Below, piece by piece: positions 16,227 through 45,170 of a stretch of 64,000 bases of DNA. The notes below the pieces were generated by a model. It searched no databases and was not told where the DNA came from. It saw nothing but the letters and a program-made list of their open reading frames with translations. How positions within the stretch are numbered: the stretch's first letter is position 1; each line of letters begins with the position of its first letter. The translations under genes were made by a program, and so were the position numbers. Source of the DNA: Thermus amyloliquefaciens (GTDB lineage: Bacteria > Deinococcota > Deinococci > Deinococcales > Thermaceae); the NCBI RefSeq assembly GCF_000744885.1, contig NZ_JQMV01000003.1:1-64000 (forward strand), written 5' to 3'.

Positions 16227-16232
16227 GTAAGG

Positions 16233-16240
16233 ATTATATT
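16233..16240. promoter_or_regulatory. Overlapping divergent -10 boxes, folP / uspA
   Basis: Minus-strand TATAAT (16233-16238) is six bases from the folP GTG. Plus-strand TATATT (16235-16240) precedes uspA, whose leader carries AGGAGGTG. The two boxes share four bases, so one melted region could serve both directions. Confidence 0.6.
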
Positions 16241-16251
16241 GGGGCCAGGAG

Positions 16252-17094
16252 GTGAGCGAAATGCGCCTTTTGGCGGCGGTGGACCTGGGGGAGGCGTTTC
16301 GGGTGGTGGTGGAAACGGCCCGCTTCCTCCAAGAGGGTCTTGGGCTTCCCGCCGAGCTCCTGCACGTGGTGCCCACCCCCTACCTGGAGGCCCTAGGCAG
16401 GCGGTTCCCGGATCTGGCGCCCAGGTTGGAGGCCACCTTGGGCCTGGTGGAGGAAGGGGTGCGGGAGGCTTTAGCCGAGACGGGCCTGAGGGGCTAGGTG
16501 CTAAGGGGGTTTCCCGCCCAGGTGGTGGCGGGGGAGGCCTTGAAAAGCCGCCTGGTCCTTTTGGGTCAGCGGGGAACGGATGCCCTCGAGGCCCTGGCCC
16601 GGGGAGGCCTGGCCCGCTACCTGCTCCACCGGGGGGAGGTGCCCGTCCTCCTGCTTCCCAGGGCCCTAAAGGGGGTGCGGCGCATCGCCGTGGGGCTGGA
16701 CGATAGCCCCGCAAGCCTGAGCGCTTTCCGGATGGCGGAGGCCTGGGGCAGGGCCTTGGGGGCCGAGGTCTTCGGCCTGCACCTGGTGAGCGGGCAAGGG
16801 GGGTGCTGCTTCCCCACCTATCTGGATCCGGAAACCCTGGGGCTTGCGGAGGCCTTGGACCGGGCCAAGGCCCATCTGGAAAACCTCCTGAAGGCCACGG
16901 GGGTGGTGGAGGTGTCCAAGGGGGAAGAGGAGCTGGACCTTTTGCGCTTGGCCGAGGCCCGGGAGGCGGACCTTCTGGTTTTGGGTTCCAAGGCCAAGAG
17001 CACCTGGCGCCACCGGCTTGGGCGCATGGTGGAGGTCCTGGCCCACCGGAGCTCCCTCCCCCTCCTGGTGGTGCCCGAGGCCACGGTCTGGTAA
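16252..17094 (+). pseudogene. Tandem universal stress protein interrupted by an in-frame TAG
   Basis: Two reading segments in the same frame, 16252-16497 and 16498-17094, together make a 280-residue double UspA-domain protein. A single TAG at 16495-16497 separates them, in the middle of the first domain (GLRG-stop-VLRGFPAQVV). The second domain is complete, from about RRIAVGLDDSPASLSAFRMA to VLAHRSSLPLLVVPEA, with the G-x2-G-x9-G-type loop region LGSKAKSTWRHRLG. GTG at 16498 could restart the rest. The cause is a nonsense mutation, a sequencing error (one base from GAG/CAG/AAG), or true termination and restart. Confidence 0.8.
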
Positions 17095-41097: not shown

Positions 41098-41693
41098 CAC
41101 TTCGGGGTGGGGAGCCTAAGGCCTAGCCGCCTCCCGAAGATCCGCAGGAGGACCGTGGCCAAAGCCCCGGCGAAGAGGGCCCCTTGCGGGTGAAGGCCGT
41201 GGAGGGCGTAGACCAAAAGCGCCCCCACCAGGGCGGCGGAGGCGTAGAGGTCCCCTGCCCGGTAGAGGATGCCGGGCACCTCCCCGGAGAGCACGTCCCT
41301 GAGCACCCCTCCCCCCACCCCGGAGAGGGTGCCCGCCAGGGCCACCCCGAAGGGCCCAAGCCCCGCCTCGAGGCCCCGCTCCGCCCCCAAGGCGGCGAAG
41401 AGGCCCAGGCCCAGGGTGTCCAGGTAGTAGATGGGCCTTTCCAGGGCCTGCACCCGGGGGTGGAAGCGGAAGACGAGAAGCCCCACCAGGACCACGCTCC
41501 AGAGGAGGGGTTCGTTCCTCAGGGCCGTGGGGGGTAAGGTCCCCACCAGGACGTCGCGGATGGAGCCACCCCCTACCGCGGTCACCGTGGCCAGGACCAG
41601 GACCCCAAGGAGGTCAAACCCCCGCTCCACCCCCTTCAGGGCCCCCGTGGCGGCGAAGACCAGGGTGCCGAGCCAGACCAGGGCCTCAACCAT
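41097..41693 (-). CDS. TRIC-type channel / YicG (UPF0126) family membrane protein
   Basis: The 198-residue protein has two repeated three-helix units. The repeated glycine motif appears as AVGGGSIRDVLVG and GVGGGVLRDVLSGEVP, the mark of prokaryotic TRIC/UPF0126 proteins. Relatives are proposed cation channels, and some affect glycine uptake. It overlaps the ispF end by eight bases in the same direction. Confidence 0.88.
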   Translation of the reverse strand: MVEALVWLGTLVFAATGALKGVERGFDLLGVLVLATVTAVGGGSIRDVLVGTLPPTALRNEPLLWSVVLVGLLVFRFHPRVQALERPIYYLDTLGLGLFAALGAERGLEAGLGPFGVALAGTLSGVGGGVLRDVLSGEVPGILYRAGDLYASAALVGALLVYALHGLHPQGALFAGALATVLLRIFGRRLGLRLPTPK

Positions 41694-42143
41694 CCAAAAG
41701 CACCACCGCCCGAGCCTGCACGTGCTCCGGGGCCAGGCCCTCCGAGGTCTTGAAGGTGAGGCCGATGCGGTCTTTGGGCAGGGCGAGGAGCCGGGAGAGG
41801 TTTTCCAAAAGGGCCTCGCGGTGGGGGGAGAGCTTGGGGCGGTCCAGGGTGAGGGTTAGGGCCACCTGCAAGAGCTTTCCCCCCCGTTCCTCCACCCGGC
41901 GCAACGCCTCCTTCAGGAAGACCTCGCTCCTCGCTCCCTGCCAGCGGGGGTCGGTGTCGGGGAAGAGGAGGCCGATGTCCCCGAGGCCATAGGCGGAAAG
42001 GAGGGCGTCGGTGAGGGCGTGTAAGGGGCGTCCCCGTCGGAATGGGCCAAGGCCCCATGGGGGCTTGGGATCAAGAGGCCGCAAAGGTAAAGGGGCCTGC
42101 CTTCCCCAAGGCGGTGGCTGTCCTCCCCGTAGCCGATGCGCAT
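41686..42143 (-). pseudogene. ispF: 2-C-methyl-D-erythritol 2,4-cyclodiphosphate synthase, frameshifted
   Basis: MEP-pathway enzyme. From ATG 42143 the frame gives the N-terminus with metal-site residues ([19 protein letters not shown] and HSDGDAP). It then runs out of frame, while the next frame continues [24 protein letters not shown] to the normal end at 41686. One missing base in the G4 run at 42025-42028 (minus-strand C4, expected C5) restores GDAPLHALTD. Since the pathway needs IspF and dxs is intact, a sequencing error is at least as likely as a real mutation. Confidence 0.88.
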
Positions 42144-42146
42144 GGC

Positions 42147-42155
42147 TATACTTTA
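42147..42155. promoter_or_regulatory. Overlapping divergent -10 boxes, ispF / HD hydrolase
   Basis: Plus TATACT (42147-42152) is seven bases from the HD gene ATG. Minus TAAAGT (42150-42155) is six bases from the ispF ATG. The start codons are only 16 bases apart. Confidence 0.65.
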
Positions 42156-42159
42156 GGGC

Positions 42160-42711
42160 ATGCCGAGCTTTGCGGAAGCCTTGGCCCTCATGGAGGCCTG
42201 GACGGAAGGCGAGTCCTTGAGGCGGCACATGCGGGCGGTGGAGGTGGCCATGCGGGCCTACGCCCGCCGCTTCGGGCAGGACGAGGAGCTTTGGGCCGTG
42301 GCCGGGGTCCTCCACGACATGGACTACGAGAAGTACCCGGAGGAGCACCCCTACCGCGGGGTGGAGGAGCTGCGGCGTCTGGGCTACCCGGAGGAGGTGC
42401 TGGAGGCCATCCTGGGCCATGCCTCCTACACCGGGGTGCCCCGCAGGACCCTGATGGCCAAGGCCCTCTTCGCGGTGGACGAGCTCACGGGCCTCATCAC
42501 CGCCGCGGTCTATGTGCGCCCGGACCGCTCCATCCTGGGCCTGGAGCTCCCAAGCCTCAAGAAAAAGTTCAAGGATAAGGCCTTTGCCAAGGGGGTGAAC
42601 CGGGAGGAGATTCGCATGGGGGCGGAGGCGTTGGGCCTTTCCCTGGAGGAGCACATGGCCTTTGTCCTCGAGGCCATGAAGGGCGAAGCGGAGCTTCTGG
42701 GCCTCAAGTAG
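42160..42711 (+). CDS. HD-domain phosphohydrolase
   Basis: The 183-residue protein has the HD signature: His23 (RRHMRAVEVAMRAYA), His52-Asp53 (VLHDMDYEKYPEEHP), ILGHASYTG and a late Asp (AVDELTGLI). Members hydrolyse nucleotide or phosphate esters. The substrate is unknown. It is transcribed divergently from ispF. Confidence 0.85.
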   Translation: MPSFAEALALMEAWTEGESLRRHMRAVEVAMRAYARRFGQDEELWAVAGVLHDMDYEKYPEEHPYRGVEELRRLGYPEEVLEAILGHASYTGVPRRTLMAKALFAVDELTGLITAAVYVRPDRSILGLELPSLKKKFKDKAFAKGVNREEIRMGAEALGLSLEEHMAFVLEAMKGEAELLGLK

Positions 42712-44066: not shown

Positions 44067-44344
44067 GCTCCAAGTCTACGCCGGGCCTCCTCGAGGAGGG
44101 GCCGCCAGTCTAAGCCCAGATAGGGGGAGGGGAGGCCCAGGAGCTTTCCCTCCGCCTTCCGCAGGTTCCTCAGGCCCCCCCGCCCGGTCTGGGCCTGGTG
44201 CAGGGCGGCCGCCAGGAGGATGAGCCCCTGGAAAAAGCGGCGCTTCTCCCCTTTCGCCTTGCGCCAGGCCTCCTCGAGGACCTCGTGGGCCTCAAAGTAG
44301 CGCCCTCCCTGAAAAAGGTGCCAGGCCTCCCTCAAGGCTTCCAC
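44063..44344 (-). CDS. DUF309 family protein
   Basis: The 93-residue helical protein has the DUF309 motif AWHLFQGGRYFEAHEVLEEAWR followed by FFQGLILLAAALHQAQTGR. The function is unknown. GTG at 44344 is the start, six bases after TAGTCT on the minus strand; its -10 overlaps that of tupA. Confidence 0.85.
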   Translation of the reverse strand: MEALREAWHLFQGGRYFEAHEVLEEAWRKAKGEKRRFFQGLILLAAALHQAQTGRGGLRNLRKAEGKLLGLPSPYLGLDWRPLLEEARRRLGA

Positions 44345-44350
44345 CCCTTC

Positions 44351-44360
44351 AGACTAAACT
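44351..44360. promoter_or_regulatory. Overlapping divergent -10 boxes, DUF309 / tupA
   Basis: Minus TAGTCT (44351-44356) and plus TAAACT (44355-44360) overlap by two bases. Each is exactly six bases from its own start codon. Confidence 0.65.
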
Positions 44361-44366
44361 CTTCCC

Positions 44367-45170
44367 ATGCGCGCCCTCCTGGTGCTCCTTGCCGCCTGCC
44401 TTTCCGGCCCGGCCCTGGGGCTCAGGCTGGCCACCACCACCAGCGTCTACGATGCGGGGCTTTTGGACCGGCTCCTGCCCGCCTTTGAGAGGGCCGCGGG
44501 GGTGCGGGTGGAGGTCCTGGCCGTGGGCACGGGGCAGGCCCTGCGCCTGGCCGAGCGCAAGGATGTGGATGCGGTCTTGGTCCACGCCCCGGAGCTGGAA
44601 GGGGAGGCCCTAAAGCGGGGGGTCCTGGCCGAGCCCTTCTGCCTCGCGCAGAACAGCTACCTCCTGGTGGGGCCCAAGGGGGATCCCGCCCGGGTCCGGG
44701 AGGCAAGGGATGCCCTGGAGGCCTTGCGGCGGATCGCCCGGGCCCAGGCTCCCTTCGTCTCCCGGGGGGATCGCTCGGGCACCCATTTGCAGGAGCTTTC
44801 CCTCTGGGCGAAGGCGGGCCTGGTCCCCAAGGGGGGCTGGTACCTGGAGTCGGGGGCGGGCATGGGCCAGACCCTGGTTCTGGCGGCGGAAAAGGGGGCC
44901 TATACCCTCTCCGACCTGGCCACCCACCTCACCGTTGGCCGGAAAAGGGGCCTGGTGGCCCTGCATGGGCGGGATGACCCCCTTCTTTTGAACCAGTACA
45001 CGTACCACGTGGTCCCTCAGGGGGTGCGGCTCAAGGAGGCGGAAGCCCTTCGCCGCTTCCTGGCCACGGAGGAAGCGGCCCGGCTGGTGGGGGGCCTGCG
45101 GGTGGAGGGGGTGCAACTCTTCAAGCCCCTAAGGGGGCGGTGTATCATCCCCTGGAGTGGAGGCCTTTGA
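44367..45170 (+). CDS. tupA: Tungstate ABC transporter substrate-binding protein TupA
   Basis: Periplasmic tungstate binder. After the signal peptide it shows the TupA opening LRLATTTSVYDAGLLDRLLPAFE, then VLVHAPELE, SRGDRSGTHLQELSLW (oxyanion site) and YTLSDLATHL. This is the tungstate branch rather than the ModA branch. It overlaps tupB by 14 bases. Confidence 0.9.
   Translation: MRALLVLLAACLSGPALGLRLATTTSVYDAGLLDRLLPAFERAAGVRVEVLAVGTGQALRLAERKDVDAVLVHAPELEGEALKRGVLAEPFCLAQNSYLLVGPKGDPARVREARDALEALRRIARAQAPFVSRGDRSGTHLQELSLWAKAGLVPKGGWYLESGAGMGQTLVLAAEKGAYTLSDLATHLTVGRKRGLVALHGRDDPLLLNQYTYHVVPQGVRLKEAEALRRFLATEEAARLVGGLRVEGVQLFKPLRGRCIIPWSGGL

Follow-up and report, generated by a model that had tools for sequence, protein, structure and literature searches.

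The window analysed in this work, a stretch of 64,000 nucleotides, comes from a Thermus genome, namely from its main contig of 2.06 Mb. Within it, the gene coding for the 2-C-methyl-D-erythritol 2,4-cyclodiphosphate synthase (ispF, 41686-42143, minus strand) and a gene coding for an HD-domain (HDIG) metal-dependent hydrolase of 183 aa (42160-42711, plus strand; hereafter the HD gene) are divergently oriented and separated by 16 bp only. The former was assigned on the basis of a TIGR00151 match (first 68 residues of the protein of a relative), and its ATG (42141-42143) opens a protein start of the MRLGYGEDSH type that is kept in the genus. The latter, whose ATG begins at 42160, matches both PF01966 (1.2e-9) and TIGR00277 (5.7e-9); a sequence comparison with the HD protein did not retrieve any relative of solved structure.

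In this assembly alone, ispF is frameshifted by one base near position 42028, in a run of C residues (42020-42036, minus strand); all the complete relatives examined harbor an intact ispF frame of 152 codons (152 aa). Since ispF is normally essential, the frameshift probably represents a sequencing or assembly error. The HD gene, in turn, is split in one Thermus genome (L027 and L028; G026:C1:1994665-1996406), with some 1.2 kb between the parts encoding residues 1-62 and 60-182, pointing to an insertion inside the gene; the intergenic region upstream of it is still intact.

Putative promoter elements between ispF and the HD gene

The intergenic region (42144-42159) reads GGCTATACTTTAGGGC and embeds one TANNNT box on each strand, resembling a -10 element and lying about 6-7 nt from the respective start codon. 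The box of the HD gene is TATACT (42147-42152, plus strand), followed by 7 nt (TTAGGGC) and by the ATG at 42160, while that of ispF is TAAAGT (42150-42155, minus strand), followed by 6 nt (ATAGCC) and by the ATG at 42143; the two boxes overlap by three bases (42150-42152). The coordinates, the spacing and the three-base overlap are those of the original prediction. The plus box can also be read as TACTTT (42149-42154), 5 nt before the ATG of the HD gene, so that neither of the two plus readings lies at exactly 6 nt. Together with the minus box, TACTTT forms TACTTTA (42149-42155), that is, a TANNNTA core with an offset of -1, in which the -7 and -11 positions of the two directions coincide. This reciprocal coincidence of the -7 T and the -11 A holds for TACTTT and not for TATACT, and both are conserved. 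The transcript starts predicted for the two strands (42143 and 42160) are 17 bp apart.

As far as other signals are concerned, no Shine-Dalgarno sequence was found at a working distance on the ispF side, and on the HD side an AGGG lies just 1 nt from the ATG, which is not well placed for this role. The search for a -35 hexamer 15-19 nt upstream of the -10 boxes gave at best 2/6 matches on the plus strand and 3/6 on the minus strand, i.e., the level of random positions. It had been proposed that the layout leaves no room for -35 sites; this does not hold, in that the corresponding positions exist, and are free, in the opposite coding sequence, and it is the motifs that are missing. Their lack in both directions agrees with the finding that leaderless promoters consisting of a -10 motif alone work in Deinococcus (PMC12340547).

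These data bear on a different explanation, according to which only one promoter direction is true, the opposite box being a by-product of the symmetry of the -10 element and the other gene being driven from inside the opposite coding sequence. A near-symmetric -10 element does easily yield a spurious opposite box; however, no sigma-70-like promoter is present on either strand between 42000 and 42300, and a well-placed Shine-Dalgarno sequence is lacking upstream of both genes.

Gene pairs sharing the layout

The frequency of this layout was analysed in 964 kb of the chromosome, where genes were called with a simple caller (uncurated) that made no use of upstream motifs in the choice of the starts. 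Upstream of the 933 genes considered, TANNNT shows sharp maxima at 6 nt (126 genes) and 7 nt (67 genes), versus about 6 for each other position; therefore, leaderless genes appear to be common in this chromosome. Divergent pairs with a gap of 15-25 bp, a range fixed after the list had been viewed, are 11 out of 124 (roughly 9%), and nine of these 11 gaps harbor a TANNNT 5-8 nt from both starts (eight out of ten without the ispF pair, which was entered by hand owing to the frameshift). Shuffling the sequences of the same short gaps gave a mean of 0.07 double-box pairs, with a maximum of three in 2000 shuffles.

Moreover, two registers of the boxes are favoured: the TANNNTA core, found in five pairs (ispF/HD and four others), and the sharing of TA, found in three. 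A simulation under a dinucleotide model revealed that these two registers alone arise by chance, at 0.7 motif-only hits each per 964 kb, because the shared bases lower the requirement. This rate speaks in favour of the possibility that one of the two boxes is a by-product; nevertheless, the excess over simulated chance in the two favoured registers is real, and the preference for them may reflect simple parsimony.

Five further pairs were traced through the genus, and the double-box layout is kept, for most of them genus-wide: rraA/purU (25 out of 26 purU loci), sdaAB (26 out of 27), dnaX (27 out of 28), ribH/crcB (25 out of 27) and tupA on its DUF309 side (16 out of 23, 13 of which have the same box offset as in the window). 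Some of the misses of this survey are placing artefacts, as in L026 and L027, where the match begins inside the gene and the gap is intact. The assignments of folP, tupA, DUF309, HD and ispF rest on a comparison with family models; rraA, purU, sdaAB, dnaX, ribH and crcB are what we take these genes to be from their translated sequences.

Two additional pairs of the window had been indicated as having the same layout. For DUF309 (minus strand) and tupA (plus strand), this is correct: the 22-bp gap (44345-44366; 44342-44369 with its flanks) harbors TAGTCT and TAAACT, each 6 nt from its start codon and sharing TA. This pair is a reasonable further example, with a lower conservation than the other ones. 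The gap between folP (minus strand) and uspA (plus strand) (16227-16260) is instead a one-sided case. It includes overlapping TATAAT and TATATT boxes, the first of which lies 6 nt from the GTG of folP (16226), whereas the second (16235-16240, plus strand) is 20 nt from the ATG of uspA (16261), with a GGAGG in between, so that the leaderless distance is observed for folP alone. Hence, the idea of a repeated design is well supported by the other pairs and by their conservation in the genus, but not by the folP/uspA example.

The sequence ATTATATT (16233-16240) in this gap looks like a near-symmetric two-way -10 element of a mixed form, leaderless for folP and Shine-Dalgarno-led for uspA. The uspA-like gene starting at 16261 (plus strand) has an in-frame stop (16495-16497) after 78 codons, and the same frame runs on to 17094; the stop may be genuine (a nonsense mutation) or, again, due to an error in the sequence.

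Conservation in Thermus and its relatives

The alignment of the ispF/HD gap from 27 Thermus genomes comprised 26 distinct sequences. Only four positions are variable (42146, 42153, 42157 and 42158), none of which is a defining T, A or T of either box; accordingly, the six box-defining bases are unchanged in all 26 sequences, as are all six bases of TATACT. Pairwise distances average 0.04 in the gap versus 0.31 and 0.16 at the third codon positions of ispF and of the HD gene, respectively.

One might suppose that the boxes are chance occurrences in an AT-rich spacer, conserved only through the coding starts, since the gap is just 16 bp long and has conserved codons on both flanks. The flanking third codon positions, however, diverge far more than the gap itself, and double boxes recur in other pairs far more often than in the shuffled sequences and are kept across the genus; we regard this explanation as very improbable. 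The alignment also weighs on the existence of a single true direction. The T and A at 42147-42148, belonging to the plus box alone, and the A at 42155, belonging to the minus box alone, are all invariant, and together with the missing alternative promoters this makes a single direction rather unlikely. Conservation cannot wholly separate the two putative promoters, the gap being short and some of its bases being common to both.

Outside the genus, the 16-bp layout of Thermus is found again in G035, a genome from a sister genus. In the remaining organisms, the two genes are often still divergent neighbours, with a wider gap. In a genome of the same order and of another family (G031), the gap is 47 bp long and contains two separate leaderless boxes, that of the HD gene being TATAGT; in Trueperaceae, lacking the compact layout, the HD gene has a leaderless box TAAACT. 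In Meiothermus and Calidithermus, the gap is wider than that of G031, and the HD gene has a promoter of the TTGACC/GAGAAT type at the leaderless distance.

In the Meiothermus loci (L053, L057 and others), TTGACC and GAGAAT are conserved, about 17 nt apart, with the latter adjoining the start codon of the HD gene, which is therefore apparently leaderless yet provided with a -35 element, whereas the Thermus version lacks it.

Samples of 400 kb each from G031 and from a genome of the same family (G029) did not contain any gap of 15-25 bp among 98 divergent pairs, versus 11 out of 124 in this Thermus (Fisher p = 0.0014), a contrast between one Thermus genome and two relatives. The wider ispF/HD gaps of the relatives suggest that, in the Thermus line, two leaderless promoters once apart came closer to each other up to the fusion of their -10 boxes, a direction of change that we infer from the sequences compared.

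A putative two-way promoter for leaderless mRNAs

In our opinion, the 16-bp gap probably represents a bidirectional housekeeping (sigma-A) promoter, both transcripts of which would be leaderless. According to this model, the AT-rich core TATACTTTA would offer one TANNNT -10 element per strand, and the RNA polymerase holoenzyme would bind in one orientation or in the other, never in both at once, open the double helix from the -11 A onwards and initiate transcription on the A of the corresponding start codon or beside it (42160 or 42143). Because of these starts, both mRNAs would be leaderless and would be translated as such, and their 5' ends would not overlap. The original prediction placed both starts in one melted region; since a single complex is expected to fit at a time, there would rather be two alternative, overlapping bubbles. 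A point against this model is that, in so short a gap, any promoter may be bound to assume such an appearance.

Judging from its letters, the gap combines the sequence features of two known systems. The first is that of the promoters that are bidirectional by -10 symmetry (Warman et al. 2021, cited in PMC12825309; Middlemiss et al. 2023, PMC10268837). Near-symmetric -10 elements of E. coli and Salmonella give starts on either strand 7-25 bp apart, 18 bp being the commonest distance (PMC10268837, PMC12825309). As in those promoters, the -10 elements of the opposite strands share bases here, and the predicted spacing of 17 bp falls inside the range that defines bidirectional promoters; the TANNNTA core, which in the ispF/HD gap depends on the TACTTT reading, would correspond to the commonest 18-bp class, and a box offset of +4 to the 23-bp class. 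Unlike those promoters, both products would be leaderless in this case and the gap would be the promoter core itself, with starts predicted from the DNA; the two papers searched contain no mention of leaderless RNAs.

The second system is the leaderless motif of Deinococcus-Thermus (Zheng et al. 2011, PMC3160421; Zhong et al. 2025, PMC12340547), a phylum where leaderless genes are common (PMC3160421, PMC12340547) and where a -10 motif by itself, a few nt before the start codon, gives rise to leaderless mRNAs with no need for a -35 element (PMC12340547). In T. thermophilus, RNA rises downstream of this motif (PMC12340547). The ispF/HD boxes share with it the TANNNT at a short distance from the start (6-7 nt in this case), the predicted absence of a leader and the presumed dispensability of the -35 element. 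These studies, unlike the two-way layout described here, treat genes singly: the words divergent and bidirectional are absent from PMC12340547, and divergent is absent from the main text of PMC3160421. The FadR and TTHB023 work on T. thermophilus HB8 (PMC5597230, PMC7022988) also deals with divergent genes whose promoters lie close together in a common region; it discusses shared repressor sites and -35/-10 predictions, and the word leaderless does not occur in it.

The two-way promoter might, in addition, act as a regulatory switch, the competition between polymerases resulting in a reciprocal expression of ispF and of the HD gene. Two overlapping binding registers would indeed be sterically exclusive; however, in the five bidirectional E. 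coli promoters tested (PMC12825309), basal transcription is too low for competition, and the pairs using this layout have no obvious common function, so that we consider such a switch quite unlikely. For the latter reason, saving space in a compact genome, and not the co-regulation of the two genes, is the likely purpose of a two-way promoter.

On a wider scale, one could imagine a conserved Thermus class of minimal two-way promoters, with about 16-24 bp between the start codons and perhaps about 20 members per genome (by extrapolation), in which the orientation of the polymerase alone would pick which leaderless mRNA is made, with reciprocal coupling, and which would have arisen by compaction of leaderless promoters that were once apart, as they are in G031, with a final fusion of the -10 boxes. 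In this full form, the scenario is speculative and rather improbable.

Both ingredients are already known, i.e., the leaderless -10 motifs (PMC3160421, PMC12340547) and the -10 symmetry (PMC10268837, PMC12825309); in the literature searched, which covered few subscription papers, we found no description of the combination of -10 symmetry with two leaderless mRNAs. The real addition is a conserved, genus-wide class of such putative promoters. If the two-way reading is true, this would be about the smallest possible arrangement for two divergent protein-coding genes, with an intergenic region consisting of one shared core, no leaders and no -35 elements. These gaps would then represent natural, conserved test pieces for the choice of orientation by the polymerase and for the minimal DNA required by sigma-A and by leaderless translation, and might provide practical rules for the annotation of start codons and for the design of two-gene vectors in thermophiles.
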